DNA of 64,000 bases from an uncultured Spirochaetota bacterium. Its GTDB lineage: Bacteria > Spirochaetota > UBA4802 > UBA5550. A model generated the notes under the pieces. The model searched no databases. It saw only the letters and a program-made list of their open reading frames with translations, and was not told the origin of the DNA. Shown here one piece after another: positions 5,409-29,847 of this stretch; position 1 is the first letter of the stretch; every line of letters begins with the position of its first letter. The DNA is taken from assembly GCA_937872225.1 (NCBI GenBank), contig CALMRZ010000016.1:124001-188000 (forward strand), read 5' to 3'. The translations under genes were made by a program, and so were the position numbers.

Positions 5409-6959
5409 TCACAGCTTTTTCAGAACAATGACGGTCGCATCGTCTCTCAGGAGGTTCAGGCCGCCGGTAAAATCCGCGAGGCCGGCAACAAGATGGTCCA
5501 GGACAGCTGACGCGCTGCCTGCCGGTGCTCCGGCAAGGATCGATCGAAGCCGCTCATCTCCCAGTATGGCCCCGCTTTCGTCGGCCGCCTCGATGACGCC
5601 ATCCGAATACAGGACGATGCAGTCGCCGGGTGAGCAGTCGAAGGAGACGGTCTCGTATTCCCGGTGGTCCGGGAACATGCCGATGAAGAAGCCGCTGTTG
5701 TTTACGATCCTGTCCGCTGACGCACCTCTCTTCAGCAGGAGCTGCGGATGGTTTGCGTTGGCGTATTCGACCCGCCCCCCCGACAGCCGCAGCAGTATTC
5801 CGGTAAGGTAGAAGCCTGACATTCCTATTTCATGGTATAATTCATGATTGGACCGGTCGAATACACCGCCGAGACCGGGTCCCGTGCGCTTCTTGAAGTT
5901 GCGGAATATGATTGATTTTGCTATCATGGTGACAAGAGCCGATGCGATGCCGTGGCCTGAAACATCGAAGATGCCGACGCCCGCAAGCCTGCCGTCCAGG
6001 ACATAAAAATCGTAGAAGTCGCCGGAAACTCCGGCCATGGGATGCAGGAAATACGACAGCTCCCATTCATCGGAGACAGGGGCTTCTGAAGGAAGAAACG
6101 TCCTCTGGACATTGACCGCCATGTTCAGGTCCCGCTGCGCGACCTCCTGCGCCGCGAGGAGCTTGCCGTTTGCGGCGGTCAGCTCCAGGTTCGCCTGCGC
6201 GAGCTTTGCCTCCCGGTCGCGGATCACATCGAGGAGGTACTCGATGGTCCAGGCGCGTTGCCGCACGATGGAAAAACCGATGAGAATGATGGAAGCCGTC
6301 AGGATCAGGGAAACTGATTCTCCCTTTGTCGATGACCCCAGGAGGGTCATGATGTTTACTGTCACCAGGAGTGCCGGCACGGTGAGAACCAGGACGGAGA
6401 ATATCCAGATATTTCTTTTCCGCGCGGGAGGGTCTTTTTCCTTGACGCAGGAGAGGCCGATGATGACAAGGCCGGCGAGGAACGTGGCAATCAGGTTGGC
6501 GCTGTACAGCGCGTACAGGGCGTCCGGTTTTCTTGTCAGCGCGAAATTGGTCACGGCTACGGTGGCCCGGTACCGTTCGAGCAAGGCCGGATCCATGAGA
6601 ATGAAAATATTGTGTCCGATGATGATCGCCGGCGGCATGAAGAGGAGATACTCGACGGGTCGTATGGAGTAGTCGGAGCGGTAAATGGCCCGCGAGAAGA
6701 AATAGAACATGGTCCCAAGGAGCGACCCGGGCATCATCTGGAACAGTATCAGTTCCGCGACGGAGATGCCGAACGAAATGTACACTGCGGCCGGGGCCAG
6801 CCAGCCGATGAGGAGAAACAGATACAGTGAAAAGAGCTGGTTTACCCTGCTGCGGCGGTTGTGGAAATAGACCGTTAAGGATATGGCCCCCACCAGGATG
6901 ATGGAGACCGCGCTGACCAGAAAGATGGTCAGATTCTGCTGCGTAAGGTGTATGTTCAT
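5409..6959 (-). CDS. Membrane-anchored PP2C/SpoIIE-type serine phosphatase
   Basis: A 516-residue protein. The N-terminal half (about 10-235) has seven or so hydrophobic segments resembling a 7TM sensor module. A coiled coil (about 240-280) leads into a PP2C_SIG/SpoIIE domain (about 290-515) with metal-binding acidic motifs: GDFYDF, GIFDVSGHG, YSDGVIEA and RDDATVIVL. RsbU/SpoIIE-like enzymes dephosphorylate anti-anti-sigma STAS proteins in partner switching. No anti-sigma kinase or classical RsbV-like STAS gene lies next to it; the only STAS domain in the window is in the receiver protein at 27440. It is flanked by a hairpin on its 3' side and is probably monocistronic. Confidence 0.9.
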   Translation of the reverse strand: MNIHLTQQNLTIFLVSAVSIILVGAISLTVYFHNRRSRVNQLFSLYLFLLIGWLAPAAVYISFGISVAELILFQMMPGSLLGTMFYFFSRAIYRSDYSIRPVEYLLFMPPAIIIGHNIFILMDPALLERYRATVAVTNFALTRKPDALYALYSANLIATFLAGLVIIGLSCVKEKDPPARKRNIWIFSVLVLTVPALLVTVNIMTLLGSSTKGESVSLILTASIILIGFSIVRQRAWTIEYLLDVIRDREAKLAQANLELTAANGKLLAAQEVAQRDLNMAVNVQRTFLPSEAPVSDEWELSYFLHPMAGVSGDFYDFYVLDGRLAGVGIFDVSGHGIASALVTMIAKSIIFRNFKKRTGPGLGGVFDRSNHELYHEIGMSGFYLTGILLRLSGGRVEYANANHPQLLLKRGASADRIVNNSGFFIGMFPDHREYETVSFDCSPGDCIVLYSDGVIEAADESGAILGDERLRSILAGAPAGSASAVLDHLVAGLADFTGGLNLLRDDATVIVLKKL

Positions 6960-7313: not shown

Positions 7314-8155
7314 TTACGCCCGGAGGCCCCTCCTCCTCATGCGCCTCGTGGCTAGTATGAGCCCCAGGGGCAGCGCCATCATGGCGAAGAGTCCCGTGAC
7401 CTCGGACGCGTGACCGGCGTCGGTGCCGCGGTATGGGGCCGCCGACGCGACGGAGCCGCAGCCGGTCTTGCCGCCGTTCAGGAGATGGTTATCGGCGTCC
7501 TCGTTGCTGCCGATCATCTTACAGGTCGAGCCTTCGCCCGCGGTGTTTGTTGCCGTGAAGTCAAGCTTCGCCGGGTGTTCTGCGTCGATCACGATGAAAT
7601 TATAACCGTTGCCCACGACCCCGAGGGATAGCCGCCGGATGGTCTGTTCGGCCGGTTTTTTTTCCTCGATCTCTTTTCTCAATGTTTCATTGACGCCGCG
7701 CAGCTCCCTCGTCTGCTCGAGGACCTTATACTCCAGTTCGGTATTCATTTTCTGAAGCTCGCGCTTCATGTGGCTGAGCGTAAGATGTGTCCGGACCCGG
7801 ACCAGCAGCTCCTCGACGTCAATGGGTTTGCGATGTAATCCGACGCGCCGCACTGGACCCCCTTCACCTTATCGAAGATCCCTGACGCAGCCGTTATAAA
7901 TATAACCGGTATACCCATCGACGCCGGATCCGACTTGATGCGCTTGCATATCTCGAACCCGTTTTCGCCGGGCATCATGACGTCAAGCGGTATCAGATCG
8001 ACCGCCTCGCTGCCGATTGTTTTCAGCGACTCCGCGCCGTTCGCTGCGGTGACCGGGCCATAATCCTTGCGCGACAGGAATTCTTTGACCAGGTTGCGGC
8101 TTTCGATTTCGTCATCCACGCACAGGATTTTTTTCTTTTCTGCTGGTTCCGTCAT
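7314..8155 (-). pseudogene. Frameshifted response regulator fused to a foreign secreted-protein tail
   Basis: Reading from 8155, a normal receiver domain appears (ILCVDDE; phosphoacceptor in LDVMMPGENG; FITAASG) up to GASDYIANP near 7833, after which this frame drifts and stops at 7766. The neighbouring frame continues the domain exactly (KPIDVEELLVRVRTHLTLSH). Restoring one A in the AAA run at about 7831-7834 would give the expected YIAKPID, so this is a one-base deletion. A coiled coil (KRELQKMNTELEYKVLEQTREL) follows. After TIRRLSL the sequence changes to an unrelated stretch ending in NGGKTGCGS, a hydrophobic segment and RRMRRRG, like a C-terminal sorting signal. A cytoplasmic receiver should not carry such a tail, so this looks like a decayed fusion. 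Confidence 0.75.
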
Positions 8156-8428
8156 GGCAACTCCCTGAGAATTTCAAAAACCTCACCCTGGAGTTTTCAG
8201 GTGGAATTTCTGCTTCCCGGAATCTGCGGACCGTGTCGCCGGCTGTTTATCGCAGTTGCAATATATGGAGGTGCCGGGGCTAAATCATCCATAAAATCAG
8301 GAGCAGACGAAATACAACAGTCGTTGTGTGACGCTTTGAGCGGGCAGCCGGTACGGTGCGGACGCGACCGCGGTGCGTTCAAGCAAACATCAGGCGCTTC
8401 GGTCCATGCCGGTCCGGGGGTGTCCTGG

Positions 8429-9215: not shown

Positions 9216-9581
9216 ATGGGCATGAAGACGATCCTTGTGGTCGACGACGAACCGGACATATGCTCCGAACTAAGCCTTTACCTGACACGTAAAGGGTATC
9301 AGGTCGTAACCGCGCCAAACGGGAAAGAAGCCCTCGCGGTATATAAAAAGCTCAAGCCTGACATCGTCATATCCGACTACAAAATGCCGGTCATGAACGG
9401 ATTTGACCTGCTCCTGAACATTAAAAGAACCAATAAGTCGGCGGCGGTGATTCTTATGAGCGCTGTGGTTGACCTTGATCCATTTATCATGACTAAAAAC
9501 AGCGCGGCCTATGAATTCATTCACAAACCTGTTGATTTAAATGAATTATTAACAATAATACAAAAAAAAATCCCCGATTGA
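9216..9581 (+). CDS. Single-domain response regulator
   Basis: A 121-residue receiver. I chose ATG 9216 (MGMKTILVVDDE) because GGGAGG lies five bases before it and receiver homology begins there; an open frame runs further upstream without a ribosome site. Key residues: DDE acidic pair, phosphoacceptor Asp in IVISDYKMPVMNG, Ser in LMSAV and Lys in FIHKPVD. The receiver closely resembles that of the receiver-STAS protein at 27440 (same VVDDEPDIC and SDYKMPVMNG signatures), which suggests paralogues that may share a kinase. It has no output domain. Confidence 0.9.
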   Translation: MGMKTILVVDDEPDICSELSLYLTRKGYQVVTAPNGKEALAVYKKLKPDIVISDYKMPVMNGFDLLLNIKRTNKSAAVILMSAVVDLDPFIMTKNSAAYEFIHKPVDLNELLTIIQKKIPD

Positions 9582-21010: not shown

Positions 21011-23758
21011 ATGCCGGATAGGAAAAAGTCGGGCAACAGGGAAAAGCCGGGCCGCGTTCCGAATAAAGCGGCCGGCGCGGACGGGGAACGGCTCCTGCGG
21101 CTGGTCTTCGAATCAGGCCTGGTGGGCGTCATTTTTTGGGACATCGACGGCCGGATCACGGAGGCGAACGATGCGTTTCTCGCCATGGTCGGCTACACGC
21201 GGGACGATCTTACGGCAGGCCGGGTCAACGGGTACGCGCTGACGCCGCCTGAATACGGCCCTATCGAAAACGCCGCGGTGGCGGAACTAATGGCCGCCGG
21301 GGTCACCAGGGCGCCCTACGAGAAAGAGTATGTCCGCAAAGACGGGGCGCGGATACGGGTGATTTTGACGGGCGCCATGCTGGACCGGGCGCGCACCCGC
21401 GGCGTCGCTTTCGTCATGGACGTCACCGGGCGCAGGCGGATGGAGGAAGAATTTCAGAAGAACAATGAATATCTGGATCGGATGAAAGGGGAATTGAAGA
21501 GGATGGCTGAAACCCATGACCGCGCCCGCCTTGCGCTTCTCAGCATCCTTGAGGACGAGAAGATCGTCCGTCAGGAGCTTCGGGAGAGCGAAGAGAAATA
21601 CCGCCTCCTGATCGATTCGGCCCCCTGCATCATCTGCAGGCTGGGGGTCGACGGCACCACGCTGTTCGTCAACTCCTACGTGAAGCACGTGACCGGTTAT
21701 GCCGCGGACGAGATCATCGGCCGCAACTGGTGGGACCTGTTCTATCCCGGCGACCTGCGGGCCCAGGTGGCCGCCCTGTTCGAATGTTTCGGGAATGGGG
21801 ATGTGCACAATCATGAAATGGTCCTTGCGGTCCGCGACGGATCGACGAGGATCGTCCGGTGGGACTCCTTCAACGCGCGCCGGGCGGACGGGGAACCGGT
21901 CGAAATCAACGGCGTAGGCATTGACGTGACCGAACGCCGCAAGGCCGAGGACGCCGCGCGTTTCCGGCTCCGGTTTTTGTACACGGTCATTGACGCCATC
22001 AACGCGCCGGTGTTCTTCACGGACCGGGAGGGGCGGCTCACCGGATGCAACACCGCCTTCGAGGATATGACGGGCCTTCCCCTGAGCGAACTGGTCGGGA
22101 AAACCGCCCATGATCTGTGGCCGCGGGAAAGGGCCGGGCTCTTCGGCGCCAGGTTCCGGGAAATCATCGCCGGCCAGACCAGGTGCATCTACGAGGGACC
22201 GGTGCGGTTCGCCGACGGCACCGACCGTCCGGTCATGCACCACCTGTCCGCCTTCAGCGACGAAACCGGCGTGACGGAGGGGGTCGTAGGCGTCCTCTTC
22301 GACATGACGGAACTCAAAAAGGCGGAGGAAGGGCTCCGGCTCCGCGGCGAGGCCCTGGAAAACGCCGCCAACGCCGTCCTGATCACGGACCAAACGGGCG
22401 CCATCGGGTGGACGAACCGGGCCTTCACCGAACTGACCGGGTACGGCCCTGAGGAGGCCGCGGGCAAAAACCCGCGCGACCTGCTGAAGTCCGGACGCCA
22501 GGACGAAGCGTTTTACCGCGCTATGTGGGACACCATCCTCGCCGGCCGCGTGTGGCACGGCGAGCTGGTCAACCGCCGTAAGGGCGGGGCGCTCTACGAC
22601 GAGGAGATGACGATCGCGCCCTTCGCCGGCGCCGACGGCGTCATCAGGAACTTCATTGCGATCAAGCAGGACATAACGGAACGCAAGCGGGCTGAACAGG
22701 CGGTGCGCGAATCGGAGCGGTTCGCGCTGGGGACGGTAAACGCCCTTGATTCGAGCATCGCGATCCTTGACGGGGACGGCGAGATCGTCTCGGTAAACAG
22801 CGCCTGGCGGACGTTCGCCTTCGAAAACATGCGGGACCCGACGGACGTGTTCGAGGGGATAAACTATCTGGCCGTGTGCGACGCGGCGCGGGGTGACTGG
22901 TCCGCGGGGGCCGCCGAGTTCGCGGCCGGGATCAGGGCGGTCATGAAGGGCGACATGAAGACATATGAACAGGAATACCCGTGCCACTCGGCGTCGGAAC
23001 AGCGATGGTTTGTCGGGAAAGTCACCCGCTTTCCCGGCTCCGGCCCCGTCAGGGTGGTCGTGGCGCACACCGAAATCACGGAGCGGAAGATCGCCGAAGA
23101 GAAGATGGCGGCGTCCCTCCGGAAAAAAGAGGTCTTGCTGAAGGAGGTGCACCACCGGGTGAAGAACAACATGCAGGTCATTTCAAGCCTGATAGGCCTC
23201 CAGGCAAACTATCTGGAGAAGGGTGCCAACGTCCGCGCGGCCCTCGACGCGATGCAGAACCGGATAAAATCCATGGCCTTTGTCCATGAACGGCTGTATC
23301 AGTCGGAAGATTTCGCGCGGATTAATTTCCGAGAATACGTCACGATCCTTGCCACGTCCGTTTTCCAGTCGTTCAACGTGGACCAAGACCGTGTCGGCCT
23401 CCGGCTTGATGTCGGCCCGCTGACCATGGGCGTCGATATGGCCGTCCCCTGCGGTCTCATGCTGAACGAGCTGATATCTAACGCGCTGGAACACGGATTT
23501 CCGGACGGCAGAAGGGGTTTTATAACCGTATCCATGGAAGACGCCGGCGGGGGCTTCTGCCGCATTTCCGTCAAGGACGACGGGGTCGGCCTTCCCGCGG
23601 CGTTCGATGCCGGATCATCCGGATCGCTGGGGCTCAGGCTCGTCAACATACTGGCCAGGCAGATCGACGGCAGGTTTGAAGTGGTGAGCGGCGCCGGCGC
23701 GGAATTCATTGTAACATTCCCGATGGAAGGAGGTTGCGCGCCTGATGAGGGGAAGTAA
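21011..23758 (+). CDS. Soluble multi-PAS histidine kinase (HisKA_2 type)
   Basis: 915 residues without membrane segments. About five PAS domains: 28-150, 195-318, 325-440, 447-562 and 575-695, each ending in a D[MIV]TxxRxxxE/ITERK-type junction. A HisKA_2 H-box (KEVHHRVKNNMQVISSLIGLQ) and a HATPase domain (NELISNALEHGFPDG; DDGVGLP; SLGLRLVNILARQIDG) follow. It should sense cytoplasmic ligands or redox through PAS and donate phosphate to a separate receiver. Its 3' end overlaps the HD-GYP regulator by 14 bases, implying translational coupling and probable partnership. Confidence 0.92.
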   Translation: MPDRKKSGNREKPGRVPNKAAGADGERLLRLVFESGLVGVIFWDIDGRITEANDAFLAMVGYTRDDLTAGRVNGYALTPPEYGPIENAAVAELMAAGVTRAPYEKEYVRKDGARIRVILTGAMLDRARTRGVAFVMDVTGRRRMEEEFQKNNEYLDRMKGELKRMAETHDRARLALLSILEDEKIVRQELRESEEKYRLLIDSAPCIICRLGVDGTTLFVNSYVKHVTGYAADEIIGRNWWDLFYPGDLRAQVAALFECFGNGDVHNHEMVLAVRDGSTRIVRWDSFNARRADGEPVEINGVGIDVTERRKAEDAARFRLRFLYTVIDAINAPVFFTDREGRLTGCNTAFEDMTGLPLSELVGKTAHDLWPRERAGLFGARFREIIAGQTRCIYEGPVRFADGTDRPVMHHLSAFSDETGVTEGVVGVLFDMTELKKAEEGLRLRGEALENAANAVLITDQTGAIGWTNRAFTELTGYGPEEAAGKNPRDLLKSGRQDEAFYRAMWDTILAGRVWHGELVNRRKGGALYDEEMTIAPFAGADGVIRNFIAIKQDITERKRAEQAVRESERFALGTVNALDSSIAILDGDGEIVSVNSAWRTFAFENMRDPTDVFEGINYLAVCDAARGDWSAGAAEFAAGIRAVMKGDMKTYEQEYPCHSASEQRWFVGKVTRFPGSGPVRVVVAHTEITERKIAEEKMAASLRKKEVLLKEVHHRVKNNMQVISSLIGLQANYLEKGANVRAALDAMQNRIKSMAFVHERLYQSEDFARINFREYVTILATSVFQSFNVDQDRVGLRLDVGPLTMGVDMAVPCGLMLNELISNALEHGFPDGRRGFITVSMEDAGGGFCRISVKDDGVGLPAAFDAGSSGSLGLRLVNILARQIDGRFEVVSGAGAEFIVTFPMEGGCAPDEGK

Positions 23759-24806
23759 AATCCTTGTTATCGAGGACGAACTGATAACCGCGGAGAGCAT
23801 CCGGGAAAGCCTGGGCAGGGCCGGTTATGCCGTGACGGGGGTCGCAACGACGGCCGACGAGGCCTTCGCCCTGGTCCGGGAGGACCCGCCCGACCTCTCC
23901 CTTGTCGATATCAGGATCAGGGGCGGGACGGACGGCATCGAGGTAGCCCGGCGTCTGGCCGCCGACTTCGACATTCCCGTGATTTTCCTTACCGCATATT
24001 CCGATAACGACGTGGTATCGCGGGCGCGGGACAGCCTTTCCTACGGGTATCTGCTCAAACCCTTCGAGGACCGCGAACTGTACAGCAATATCGAGATTGC
24101 GATCCATAAGCACCGCGCGGACCGGGCCGTTCGGGAAAGCGAGGCACGCCTCAGGGAGAGCAACGAGAAGCTCAGGGCGACCGTCATCGGCATCGCCGCG
24201 GCCATGGCCGTCGCGGTCGAAACCAGGGACCCTTACACGGCCGGCCACCAGCGCCGCGTGGCGGAGCTTGCCGCGGCCATGGCGCGCCGCCTGGACCTGC
24301 CCGGCGACACGATCGACGGGATCAGGATAGCCGCCTCGATCCACGACATCGGGAAGCTTGGCGTGCCGGCAGAGCTCCTGGTGAAACCGACGCGCCTGAC
24401 GGCCCTGGAACTCGAGCTGATAAAAACGCATGCCCGCGCCGGATACGACATACTGAAGAACATAGACTTCCCGTGGCCGATAGCGGAGACCGTGTACCAG
24501 CACCATGAAAGGATCGACGGCTCAGGCTATCCCCGGGGGCTGAAGGGCGATGACATATTGACGGAGGCCCGCATCATCGCCGTGGCGGACGCCGTGGAAG
24601 CCATCGCGTCGCACCGTCCCTACCGGCCGGCGCTGGGCATCGATGCCGCCGTCGCGGAACTGGGCGCCAGCCGCGGAAAATTGTTCGATCCCGGTATCGT
24701 CGACGCCTGCGTTTCCCTTCTGAAAACGGGGTTTGGGTTCACGACGGAGACGGGAAATGAAGCGGCCGGATGCGGGCCGATGGAAGGGGGCAACGAAGAG
24801 ACATGA
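23745..24806 (+). CDS. Response regulator with HD-GYP c-di-GMP phosphodiesterase domain
   Basis: 353 residues. Receiver 1-125 (VIEDELITAESI; phosphoacceptor in LSLVDIRIRGGTDG; FLTAYSD; YLLKPF), a short coiled coil, and an HD-GYP domain (about 145-325) with the metal ligands in GHQRRV, SIHDIGKLGVP, TVYQHHERIDGSGYPRGLKG and AVADAVEAI. The GYP motif is complete, so active cyclic-di-GMP hydrolysis is expected, controlled by phosphorylation. It overlaps the kinase upstream by 14 bases and the kinase downstream by an ATGA, so it sits inside a coupled three-gene chain. This is the clearest catalytic output of the signalling island. Confidence 0.93.
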   Translation: MRGSKILVIEDELITAESIRESLGRAGYAVTGVATTADEAFALVREDPPDLSLVDIRIRGGTDGIEVARRLAADFDIPVIFLTAYSDNDVVSRARDSLSYGYLLKPFEDRELYSNIEIAIHKHRADRAVRESEARLRESNEKLRATVIGIAAAMAVAVETRDPYTAGHQRRVAELAAAMARRLDLPGDTIDGIRIAASIHDIGKLGVPAELLVKPTRLTALELELIKTHARAGYDILKNIDFPWPIAETVYQHHERIDGSGYPRGLKGDDILTEARIIAVADAVEAIASHRPYRPALGIDAAVAELGASRGKLFDPGIVDACVSLLKTGFGFTTETGNEAAGCGPMEGGNEET

Positions 24807-27421
24807 AGGACGTGAAAGTTTTTATCGTCGAGGACGAGCTGGTAACTGCTGAGATGATCCGTGACGTTCTGACCGGCCGCGGGTACCATATCGCCGGTTC
24901 TGCCGCGGAGGGGGGGGACGCTCTTGACTTGATAGAGCGGGGGAAGCCGGACATCGTTCTCATGGACATTAACATTAAAGGAAAAATCGACGGCATCGGT
25001 CTGGCGAACATCGTGAACGAGCGTTACCGGATCCCGGTTATTTACCTGACCGCCTTTGCCGACCGCGAAACCGTGGAGCGGGCCAAGATGACGGAGTCGT
25101 ACGGGTATTTAATTAAGCCCTTCAGCGAATTGGAACTGGTGACGAACATTGAAATCGCCCTGTACAAGCATTCGTTCGACCGGAAGCTGAAGGACAGCGA
25201 GTTGCGGTACCGCACCCTGTTTGAAACGATGAGGGACGCGGTGTACATGCATGATATGGCCGGCAAGATCATCGATTTCAATCCCGCGCTGGAGAAGATG
25301 TTGGGCTATTCCCGTGAAGAGGTTTTTTCAATAAGCCCGAGGGATGTTTTCGTCGCCGGTGACGACCCGGACAGGTTTCTGGTGGAGATAAAGAAAAGCG
25401 GTTTTATCAAGGATTTTTCCACGCGACTCCGACGAAAGGACGGCAGTGTCATCCACTGCCTTATAACGGCGAACCTGGAACGCAATCCCGTGGACGACGG
25501 GAAGGTGATACGCGGCGTCATCCGCGATATCACTGAAACTGAAAAAACGCGGCAGGCCCTCCAGGAACAAAGGGATTTCATCGACGCCGTTCTCAACAGC
25601 CTGCCGACGGTATTTTACGCCATAAACCGGGACGGACAGTTTGTGAGATGGAACCGTAAATTGGAAGAACTATACGGGTTTTCGGTAGACCAGATGGTCG
25701 GCGTCAACGTGCTGGATGTGATGGATGAGAAAAACCGCGATATATTCAGCCGCATGCTGGAGGAAGGCTTTTCCAAGGGGTACGTCAACTTTGAGGCCCG
25801 GTTGCGGCAGGCCAGCTCCGGCGGCGATCTGCGCGATTACTTCATCACCGGGCGGCGGGTTTCGATAAACGGCGCCGAATACCTTGTGGGGTCGGGCCTT
25901 GACATCACCGAGCGGAAGAAAACGGAAGAAGCCCTCCGTGAAAGCGAACTGCGGTACCGCGCCATTTTCGACTGCTCGTTAAACCTCGTCTACCTGCACG
26001 ACCTGGAGGGCCGCTTTATAGACGCCAATGACGCCGCTCTGTCCCTCCTGGGGTATGAACGAAGCGACATTCCCGCCCTCACTATCGCCGATCTGGTCGC
26101 GGGAGACGATCTGGAAAAGGCCGCGGGTCAGATCAAAAGCATGGTCGAAACGGGCGGCCAGGACCGGGTTGTTGAGTATTCTGTAAAAACCAAATCGGGA
26201 AGTTGCCGGTCCATCGAAGCCTCGACGTCGCTCCTGTATCATGAAGGCGCGCCCGTCGCCATCCTCGGCGTGGCCCGGGACATCACCGAACAGAAGCGGT
26301 TCATCGAAGAGATCAATTACGCCTACACGGAAAACAAGTATATTCTTAACTCCATCACGTCAATCCTGATAGGCGTCTCGACGAACGACACAATAACCCA
26401 CTGGAACAACGAGGCGGAGAGAGTCTTCGGGATTACGGCCCCTGAAGCACTGGGGAAAAATATCAACGGGTTCGACATCAACTGGGATTGGCCCGGGATA
26501 TACACCGGCATATCCACCTGCATCATCAATAGGGAGCCGGTCAATCTTCTTGACATAACGTTCACCGATAAAAAAGGGAGAAAGGGCCTTCTCGGTATAA
26601 CCATCAATCCGATCATCGGGGACGGCGGCATGCTGCGCGGCTTCCTTGTTCACGGAAAAGACATCACGGACCGCAGGATGGTGGAGCAGCAGCTCCTCCA
26701 ATCGAGTAAGATGGCCACGGTAGGGGAGATGGCCACCGGCGTGGCCCACGAGCTGAACCAGCCGCTCAACATCATAAAAATGGCCTCCCAGTTCATGCTG
26801 GACGGCATCAATGAGAAATACGCTACCGCAGAGTTCATCCGCGAGCGCACGGAAAAAATCGTCGCCCAGGTGGACCGCGCGGCCCATATAATAAACCACC
26901 TGAGGGAGTTTGGGAGGAAAAGCGACTATGACTTCGCCGTCATCGACCCCAATATGCCGGTCAGGGTCGCCTTTGACATGCTGGGTGAACAATTGAGGCT
27001 CCACAACATCAACGCGGTCCTCGATCTTGACGATACGGTGCCCCGGGTCAATGGAGACCTGCACAAGCTCGAGCAGGTGTTCATCAACTTGATCGTAAAC
27101 GCCAAGGACGCCATTGAAAGCGTGAAAAATCCTTTACAGGAGAATACCGTAGTGGTAAGATCATTCCTTGACGGGCGCGCCAACGCCGTGGTGATCAAAT
27201 TCAGCGACAGCGGCCCGGGCATACCGGATGACATCCGGGACCGCATCTTCGAGCCTTTTTTCACGACCAAGGAAGTGGGGAAGGGGACCGGCCTGGGGCT
27301 GTCGATAAGCTACGGAATTATCAAGGCGCATCACGGGTCCATTGATGTTGCGTCAGACGCATCGGGGACGACCTTTACGATAACCCTGCCGGCCGCGGGC
27401 GGCCGAAGCGGACACGCATGA
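24803..27421 (+). CDS. Receiver-PAS4-histidine kinase
   Basis: 872 residues from ATG 24803, which overlaps the previous stop as ATGA. Receiver at the N-terminus (about 1-120; [12 protein letters not shown]; phosphoacceptor in [20 protein letters not shown]), paralogous to the receiver of the preceding gene. Four PAS domains follow (about 130-255, 260-375, 380-500 and 510-630), then HisKA of NtrB-like type ([19 protein letters not shown]) and HATPase ([46 protein letters not shown]). It is soluble. An N-terminal receiver on a kinase indicates control by another kinase, that is, a multi-step relay with its neighbours. Confidence 0.92.
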
Positions 27422-27439
27422 TACGTGACGGAGGAATAT

Positions 27440-28204
27440 ATGAATGAGAGACTGATACTGGTGGTGGACGACGAACCTGACATTTGCGGGGAGGTCAGCG
27501 GATTTTTATCCGCCAAAGGCTACCAGGTCATAATCGCCCATAACGGCAAGGACGCCATAAAACTCTTTACGCAGCACAAACCGATCCTGGTCCTTTCGGA
27601 TTACAAGATGCCGGTCATGAACGGCATCGAACTGCTCAAGTCCATCAAGTCCATCAATAAAGATATCCACGTCGTGCTCATCAGCGGGGCCGCTGAATCA
27701 AAGACGATCGTCGAGGCGATGAAGGAGGACGCCTTCGATTTTCTCCTCAAGCCCATTGATCTGAAAAATCTGCTCGATATAGTCACTTCCGCGATAGCCA
27801 AAACACAGGCCAGGTTTATGCAAGAAAACGTCAGGCGGGTGGGGATGACGTTTGTTTCAGAGATCACGGAAGTGGAAAACTGCGCCACCATACTCTATTT
27901 CAGCAATGATCTTGACGAATACACCGCCCCCAAGTATGACACCTATATTAAAAAGATCATCAATGAACGCGTCGCCAAAAATAACGTCGTTTTCTATCTC
28001 AAAAACGTGAAATATATCAACAATATCGGGTTGAATCTTCTCATCAACCTGAATGATTTCATGAAAGACAAAGGCTATACGTTATACCTCTGTAATCCGT
28101 CGTCGCAGGTCGATTTTTATCTCCGCTCTCTCGGGTACCTAAACTATTTCAACGTAGACAATTCCGTTGAAAGCATCGTGGAGCGGATACGCCTGGCGAA
28201 ATGA
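27440..28204 (+). CDS. Response regulator with STAS (anti-anti-sigma-like) output domain
   Basis: 254 residues from ATG 27440, behind GGAGG at five bases. Receiver 1-120 (VVDDEPDIC; phosphoacceptor in LVLSDYKMPVMNG; LISGAA; FLLKPIDL) and a STAS domain (about 135-250; VVFYLKNVKYINNIGLNLLINL; LYLCNPSSQVDFYLRSLG). The loop that in RsbV/SpoIIAA carries the phosphorylated Ser (DSSGL) reads NNIGL here, so it cannot be phosphorylated in the usual way. Control would instead come from the receiver. The target, perhaps an anti-sigma kinase or a stressosome-like partner, is not in the window. Co-directional with the kinases on both sides. Confidence 0.9.
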   Translation: MNERLILVVDDEPDICGEVSGFLSAKGYQVIIAHNGKDAIKLFTQHKPILVLSDYKMPVMNGIELLKSIKSINKDIHVVLISGAAESKTIVEAMKEDAFDFLLKPIDLKNLLDIVTSAIAKTQARFMQENVRRVGMTFVSEITEVENCATILYFSNDLDEYTAPKYDTYIKKIINERVAKNNVVFYLKNVKYINNIGLNLLINLNDFMKDKGYTLYLCNPSSQVDFYLRSLGYLNYFNVDNSVESIVERIRLAK

Positions 28205-28272: not shown

Positions 28273-29847
28273 ATGAAGCGTATTCTGGTCGTCGACGATA
28301 ATGACGATAATCTCTACCTGCTGAGGTCGCTCCTGGAGGGGCGGGGATACGAAGTGGATGAAGCGTCCAACGGCGCGGAGGCCCTTTCCCGGTTCCGCGC
28401 GGACGCACCGGACATGATTATCTCCGATATTTTAATGCCGGAAATGGACGGCTTCACTTTTTGCCGTACAATCAAAAAGGACGGGGCCCTGAAAGATATT
28501 CCCTTCATTTTTTACACTGCGACCTATACCGATTCGCGTGATGAAGACTTGGCCATTGATATGGGTGCTGACGCCTTCATTGTAAAACCTGTTGAACCTG
28601 ATGTATTCCTGGAACGCCTCACCGCCGTTCTCGCCGCGAGGGAAGGCGGGGCATTGCCGGCCGCTCCGCGGCCGCCCGCGGAAGAAGGGATCGTGCTCAG
28701 GGAGTACAATGAGGCCTTGATCCGCAAGCTGGAACATAAAATGCTGGAACTCGAACAGGCCAACAGGGACCTCGAGGCTGAAATAGGCGTCCGGAAAAAG
28801 ACGGAGGACGCCCTGCGCGACAGCGAGGAACGCTACCGTTCTCTATTTGAAAACAGCATGGATGGAGTGCTGCTGACGGAGCCGAACGGGAGCATATTGA
28901 AGGCCAATCCATCGGCTTGCCTTATTTTCGGGAGGAACGAAGAGGATATACGCAGGGCCGGGAGGTCAGGCCTTATTGACGCCTCCGATCCCCGGCTGGG
29001 GCCGGCGCTTGAAGAGCGGGAAAGGACCGGCAGGTTTTTCGGGGAGCTTACCGGCCTGCGCGGCGACGGATCGAAATTCCCCTGCGAGATTTCTTCGGTG
29101 GTGTTCAGGGACCACAAGGGAAAATCAATGACCAGCATGATTCTCCGCGATATTACCGAAAGAAAGAAAGCCGAAGAAAAACTGCTCAGGGCATCTGAGG
29201 ATAAGGACGCGTTATTGAAGGAAATTCACCACCGGGTGAAGAACAACATGCAGATTATCAACAGTATGATAAACCTCCATTTGAATGAAAGCATAGCGTC
29301 GCTGACCCATGATGAAATCATCGCCATCTCCAGGGAACTGCAAAACCGCATCCGCTCCATGGCGCTGGTCCACGAACTCCTCTATTCTTCAAAGAGCCTT
29401 TCCCGGGTCAATTTCAACGAATATATGAAGAGTCTCGTTGAATCGCTGTCCCGCGCATACCATGTTTTTTGCAGTGGAACCAGCATTATACTGCGGGTGA
29501 CGGAAAGGCCGGTCCATATATCCATGGCGGTTCCGATCGGGCAGATAGCGAACGAACTGCTTACCAATGCGCTAAAATATGCCTTTCCTGCCGGCAGGGA
29601 AGGAGAAATAACGATAACGATGACGGTCGACGACAATATGTTCTATCATCTTACGGTATGCGACAACGGCATCGGTCTTCCGCGAAATTTTGACGTCAAT
29701 ACGGTGAAATCCTTCGGGCTGCGCTTGGTTTCGCTGTTGGTCAAACAGCTGGGCGGATCAATGGAGTGCCGCAACGACAACGGGGCGGTGTTCGATATAT
29801 GGTTTTCCGGCGGCAACGGCAAGAGTGGCAGTCCCTCGCTGGAATAA
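28273..29847 (+). CDS. Receiver-PAS-histidine kinase (HisKA_2 type)
   Basis: 524 residues. Receiver 1-120 (VDDNDDNLYLLRSLLEG; phosphoacceptor in MIISDILMPEMDGFTFC; FIVKPVEPDVF), coiled coil 138-185 (EYNEALIRKLEHKMLELEQ), PAS about 190-302, a HisKA_2 H-box (KEIHHRVKNNMQIINSMI) and HATPase (NELLTNALKYAFPAG; DNGIGLP; FGLRLVSLLVKQLGG). The receiver and linker duplicate those of 20319. It is the last gene of the plus-strand signalling run; the 235 bases after it contain no recognisable gene. Confidence 0.92.
   Translation: MKRILVVDDNDDNLYLLRSLLEGRGYEVDEASNGAEALSRFRADAPDMIISDILMPEMDGFTFCRTIKKDGALKDIPFIFYTATYTDSRDEDLAIDMGADAFIVKPVEPDVFLERLTAVLAAREGGALPAAPRPPAEEGIVLREYNEALIRKLEHKMLELEQANRDLEAEIGVRKKTEDALRDSEERYRSLFENSMDGVLLTEPNGSILKANPSACLIFGRNEEDIRRAGRSGLIDASDPRLGPALEERERTGRFFGELTGLRGDGSKFPCEISSVVFRDHKGKSMTSMILRDITERKKAEEKLLRASEDKDALLKEIHHRVKNNMQIINSMINLHLNESIASLTHDEIIAISRELQNRIRSMALVHELLYSSKSLSRVNFNEYMKSLVESLSRAYHVFCSGTSIILRVTERPVHISMAVPIGQIANELLTNALKYAFPAGREGEITITMTVDDNMFYHLTVCDNGIGLPRNFDVNTVKSFGLRLVSLLVKQLGGSMECRNDNGAVFDIWFSGGNGKSGSPSLE

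Follow-up and report, generated by a model that had tools for sequence, protein, structure and literature searches.

A family of probable receiver-STAS response regulators in Spirochaetota, most with asparagine at the usual serine phosphorylation site

In the 64,000-nucleotide stretch of DNA from an uncultured Spirochaetota bacterium analysed here (the window), a gene at 27440..28204 on the forward strand encodes a protein in which an intact receiver is fused to a STAS domain, the serine of the STAS loop is replaced by a family-specific asparagine, and the gene is coupled genetically to a histidine kinase. In partner switching, the STAS protein is normally the substrate of a serine kinase and of a PP2C phosphatase, and its binding is usually turned off by serine phosphorylation. 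From comparison of its sequence with those of its homologues, the protein of the window may be read as a two-component response regulator whose STAS domain serves as a protein-binding output that would no longer be switchable by serine phosphorylation at the usual site, a reading held tentatively and with a little less than even confidence. Control has probably moved from serine phosphorylation to phosphorylation of the receiver by the neighbouring sensor kinase. The protein is a new version of something already known, a STAS regulator linked to a sensor or receiver.

The open reading frame runs from an ATG at 27440, preceded at a distance of 5 nucleotides by the Shine-Dalgarno sequence GGAGG (27430-27434), to a stop codon ending at 28204, giving a product of 254 residues with full-length homologues. 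The initial annotation had placed a phosphoreceiver in front of the STAS domain, and this organization is borne out by Pfam, with the receiver (PF00072, residues 6-115, 27455..27784, forward strand, E 5e-27) and the STAS domain (PF01740, residues 142-245, 27863..28174, forward strand, E 1.9e-11) both above their curated cut-offs. The receiver retains the acidic pair, phospho-acceptor aspartate, Ser/Thr, and lysine that typify response regulators, as D11, E12, D54 (the phospho-acceptor), S82, and K104 are present in all 15 aligned homologues and D10 in 14 of the 14 rows that reach that position. The STAS part modelled alone is predicted to adopt the fold of the RsbV/SpoIIAA antagonists (pLDDT 94.9, pTM 0.85), in agreement with the Pfam assignment, and most closely matches TM1442 (Z 17.7, 1.1 Å over 100 residues), followed by TM1081 (Z 17.0) and the SpoIIAA chain of 1th8 (Z 15.3, 107 residues). 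The model of the full-length protein has a pTM of 0.50, and Foldseek searches with it return mostly receivers. The nearest named relatives are the spirochaete metagenome-assembled genomes RBG_13_51_14 and RBG_16_49_21.

Alignment to the phospho-serine loop of SpoIIAA places the sequence YINNIGLN (residues 192-199, 28013..28036, forward strand) opposite that loop, so that Asn194 corresponds to Asp57, Asn195 to the phosphorylated Ser58, Ile196 to Ser59, and Asn199 to Gly62. The initial reading of this loop as NNIGL without its serine thus holds, the whole loop containing neither serine nor threonine. As the phosphorylatable Ser/Thr of the DSSG loop was tested for and Asn195 found instead, the protein does not qualify as an RsbV/SpoIIAA antagonist, although it may well act like one that is permanently unphosphorylated. 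Among the 15 aligned spirochaete homologues (the window protein counted), asparagine occupies the Asp57 and Gly62 sites in every row and the Ser58 site in 13, a pattern that makes the change in the loop more than a matter of chance; simple decay of the loop is ruled out because the replacing residues Asn194 and Asn199 are conserved throughout. Comparison of the loop in homologues, proposed at the outset as a check, therefore establishes loss of the Ser/Thr as a trait of the family but not of all of its members: two rows, L083 and L084, both from genome G105, carry serine at the aligned site while retaining asparagine at the other two positions, and they count against the main reading. A Ser/Thr at this position in homologues had been named at the outset as a refuting result, and these two rows bear it out in part. 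Within the genome of the window, 40 STAS domains are found at E <= 0.001, the window protein among them; 36 of the 39 others have serine at the Ser58 site. Proline, alanine, and cysteine occur there once each, in L105, L106, and L113, so that the window protein is one of four such domains rather than a unique case.

The proteins that share these features make up a small and patchy family that was found, in these searches, only in Spirochaetota. When 392 genomes of the phylum were searched with the STAS alignment, scoring the best 12 candidates at most in each, at least 16 places in 10 genomes matched at E <= 4.6e-34, and the next match lay at 2.5e-19; all 20 of the weaker matches examined beyond this gap have serine at the site. 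A full-length profile at E <= 1e-35 finds the gene in 4 of the 20 genomes of the family to which the window belongs and in 7 of the 22 of a second family, one of these seven matches being the divergent L086, and the distribution is on this account described as patchy. Some genomes (G105, G152) carry four copies. The 15-row alignments omit L086 (25% identity, loop GIDRTGMA) and the L085 copy (G152:C1), whose receiver is split in two pieces, and retain L075, which begins within the receiver and has no start codon, and L073, which stops at a contig end. A scan of genome contigs with one peptide pattern gave 32 stretches, of which the 10 confirmed are all spirochaete or L122 (genome G193, of the same phylum); as this pattern misses known members such as L075, L079, and L082, absence outside the Spirochaetota is not established. 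No record in a plasmid search covered 80% of the protein.

The serine of these two rows may be ancestral, with one later loss in the family, or may have been regained after a loss. In a tree of STAS domains built without the loop columns, the 15 receiver-STAS rows form one clade (100/98) and the two serine rows are nested inside the asparagine rows (98/90 for a set of four), but a tree holding the 13 asparagine rows together is not rejected by the AU test (p 0.168). Rooting a full-length tree on L086, the divergent member, already puts all 13 asparagine rows on one side (65/93, not firm). The trees therefore differ as to whether the serine rows are basal or nested, and the AU test does not choose between an ancestral and a regained serine. 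The row closest to the clade in the STAS tree (94/68) is a STAS protein at L101:787-1749 (minus strand) with CxxC pairs near its C terminus and weak zinc-ribbon matches below the cut-off.

The coupling to a histidine kinase is apparent from the neighbourhoods of these genes. In the window, a kinase with REC, PAS, HisKA, and HATPase_c domains (24770..27421, forward strand) ends 18 nucleotides upstream of the receiver-STAS gene; it is the likely cognate kinase, with homologous kinases beside homologous genes. In 12 of the 15 loci the receiver-STAS gene has a histidine kinase gene next to it, which lies upstream in 10 and downstream in two (L124, L125). The upstream kinase is directly adjacent in seven of these (the window, L118, L119, L120, L126, L127, and L079), and the other three, all from the second family, have a lone receiver gene in between (L121:7097-7528, L122:7093-7485, and L082:5829-6236). 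Another receiver, at L123:3-446, lies just upstream of a receiver-STAS copy at a contig end and may represent the terminal part of a hybrid kinase. Since 40 HisKA matches are present in the genome of the window (E <= 0.001), chance alone would not be expected to put a kinase beside the gene at most loci. Eight of the 11 neighbouring kinases match the core of the window kinase at 198-343 bits, better than its best paralogue in the same genome (179 bits).

Weighing against the main reading, the three others (L079, L124, L125) score 96-155 bits, below this paralogue, and three loci have no adjacent kinase, two of them near contig ends (L075, L078) and one not (L084). The assignment of a cognate kinase is by gene neighbourhood, in 12 of 15 loci. 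Because the loop lacks Ser/Thr family-wide, the receiver is intact, and the kinase is adjacent in most loci, two-component control is the natural reading, and for the receiver-STAS protein itself, as judged from gene order and conserved residues, such control appears well supported. The initial annotation went further in proposing that two-component control replaces serine-kinase control of partner switching. The intact receiver and adjacent kinase uphold two-component control, but no RsbW-like gene could be recognised beside the module within the stretches covered, and a takeover of RsbW partner switching is no more than plausible.

Several other signalling genes lie in the window. The 3' end of a receiver-HD-GYP gene (23745..24806, forward strand) overlaps the kinase gene, and a receiver-HD-GYP gene occupies the same place in G122 (L118:3807-5180). 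A receiver-PAS-HisKA_2 kinase gene (28273..29847, forward strand) lies downstream of the receiver-STAS gene; it was not seen downstream of that gene in the two nearest relatives. The nearest paralogue of the fused receiver is a single-domain receiver at 9216..9581 (forward strand, 48% identity). The idea that this lone receiver is a conserved partner is not supported, as the only other matches to it at E <= 1e-24 in 20 genomes of the family are the receivers of receiver-STAS proteins. At 7314-8160 (minus strand), the reading frame changes between a receiver and its C-terminal extension, apparently through a frameshift or an error in the sequence. The SpoIIE-type phosphatase noted initially is real (5409-6959, PF07228, E 1.6e-34) and lies about 20 kb from the receiver-STAS gene; given the residue at the site, it is reasonable to suppose, as was first proposed, that it would not act on this protein.

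The residues through which STAS antagonists bind their kinases provide a further view of what the output may contact. A study of SypA places the counterparts of its Asp20, Asp22, and Phe53 among the SpoIIAA/RsbV residues that matter either for binding the kinase or for phosphorylation (PMC10120452); by the alignment made here, these correspond to Glu21, Asp23, and Phe55 of SpoIIAA. The equivalent of Asp23 in the window protein, Asp159, is present in 15 of 15 receiver-STAS proteins, compared with 14 of the genome's 39 other STAS domains, and that of Phe55, Tyr192, is tyrosine in all 15 as against 16 tyrosines and 6 phenylalanines among the 39. The site of Glu21, however, is acidic in just 5 of the 15, which counts against the main reading, and Tyr90, Leu94, Gly95, and Tyr96 of helix 3 (SpoIIAA numbering) are invariant in the family. 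The kinase-binding face thus appears half kept and half rebuilt, as would be compatible with an RsbW-type partner in modified form and equally with a new partner.

The second of these possibilities is the strongest rival to the main reading and, although somewhat doubtful, must be taken seriously: the rebuilt face may bind a protein that is not of the RsbW type, with the serine lost because no serine kinase is involved. It would account for the fact that Asn57 and Asn62, like the four helix residues, are both family-specific and present in 15 of 15 rows, for the loss of the acidic residue at Glu21 in most members, and for the lack of a recognised linked RsbW gene; SypA, too, is proposed to act on a target besides its kinase (PMC10120452). 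Retention throughout the family of Asp23 and of an aromatic residue at 55, both kinase-binding contacts, argues in the other direction.

RsbW homologues, whose presence in the genome the initial annotation had proposed as a check, do exist, encoded elsewhere than in the receiver-STAS module. HATPase_c_2 gives 40 matches in the genome of the window at E <= 0.001; many are ordinary sensor kinases, and stand-alone proteins include those of L011, L013, L015, L016, and L036. Beside the module, no RsbW-like or REC-RsbW gene was recognised in the stretches read (4.5-16 kb), and this is counted against the main reading. A search for a conserved stand-alone RsbW partner by co-occurrence was also unproductive, since 18 of 20 family genomes have RsbW-like proteins (E <= 1e-10), irrespective of whether the receiver-STAS gene is present. 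In G097, which carries the gene, short RsbW-like proteins are absent at E <= 1e-10, a further point against the main reading; all six of its HATPase_c_2 matches at this threshold lie in frames of at least 308 residues, and three weaker RsbW-like matches lie in frames of 162, 173, and 203 residues. The genome of the window also encodes REC-HATPase_c_2 fusions, including L012:994-1908 and L037:1423-2466, that have the architecture of TciR. Orthologues of the L012 fusion (66-86% identity) are found in G122, G097, G107, and G180; because G107 has the fusion but lacks the receiver-STAS gene, the fusion is not dependent on that gene.

Under the main reading, the kinase of 24770-27421 would phosphorylate Asp54, and the resulting change in the receiver, by dimerisation or by release of the STAS face, would switch binding on or off. 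The face formed by Asp159, Tyr192, the NN loop, and the YLxxLGY helix would then bind an RsbW/SpoIIAB-type HATPase_c_2 protein encoded elsewhere. For want of the serine, a bound kinase of this type could not eject the receiver-STAS protein, and resetting would then depend solely on loss of phosphate from Asp54. The evidence counted for the main reading comprises the invariant receiver residues, the adjacency and core scores of the kinases, Asn194 and Asn199, Asp159 and Tyr192, the presence of HATPase_c_2 proteins, and the activity of non-phosphorylatable SypA-S56A of Vibrio fischeri (PMC10120452). A stronger form, in which aspartate phosphorylation in the fused receiver wholly replaces serine phosphorylation and the protein defines a spirochaete-specific output class with a rebuilt, conserved face (YINNxGLN, YLxxLGY), is unlikely but not negligibly so.

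Comparison with known systems locates the protein among several partial precedents. With RsbV and SpoIIAA it shares the STAS fold and the two retained contacts of the binding face; it differs from them in lacking the phosphorylatable serine, in the change of Asp57 and Gly62 to asparagine, in the receiver in front, and in that no linked anti-sigma gene was seen. TciR of Vogesella indigofera is a REC-RsbW protein with its own histidine kinase, and its authors state that no protein of this architecture had been characterised earlier (PMC12826045). Both proteins thus join a receiver to part of a partner switch, but the output of TciR is the HATPase_c_2 (kinase/anti-sigma) half and that of the window protein the STAS half. 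In Mycobacterium smegmatis, a histidine kinase and a receiver protein, RsfS and RsfR, likewise feed a partner-switching system; RsfR, however, combines a receiver with a phosphatase and has the serine of a separate STAS protein as its target (PMC10950880), whereas the window protein carries receiver and STAS domain on a single chain. In the SypA/SypE system, too, the unphosphorylated STAS protein is the output, although SypA has the serine and is under the kinase/phosphatase control of SypE (PMC10120452). YtvA (LOV-STAS) similarly has an input domain ahead of a STAS output, with a light sensor where the window protein has a receiver. A characterised receiver-STAS protein was not found in the literature search, but the architecture as such may well have been published already; in P2CS, STAS is named as accessory to two-component proteins.

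The likeness to YtvA also bears on a distinctly improbable alternative, that the STAS domain assembles with other STAS proteins in a stressosome or similar scaffold, the receiver being its sensory module as are the N-terminal domains of RsbR and YtvA. The predicted STAS fold does match RsbS (Z 14.6) and a Listeria stressosome chain (Z 14.3), as it does SpoIIAA and TM1442, but TM1442 and TM1081 score higher, the RsbS match is no better than those to antagonists, and the neighbourhoods read contained no recognisable RsbS/RsbT-like pair next to the gene. Even less probable is a degenerate output, the STAS domain being a leftover that serves only for dimerisation or folding while the protein acts through its receiver as a phosphate sink. 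The lost serine speaks for it, as do closely related lone receiver genes, which lie beside the receiver-STAS gene in three loci and elsewhere in the window. Against it, the residues of the loop and helix stay invariant even in sequences whose STAS identity to that of the window is as low as about 23%, a pattern that decay does not produce.

On the stronger form of the main reading, with aspartate phosphorylation wholly in place of that of serine, if the partner were the conserved REC-HATPase_c_2 protein of the L012 type, two-component signalling would govern the switch in both of its halves. The receiver-STAS proteins also offer a comparison point for REC-RsbW regulators such as TciR. As a family that is linked to kinases and lacks the serine, they represent a natural test of whether the state of a receiver alone can run a partner switch, and of what a STAS face that is never phosphorylatable needs for binding.
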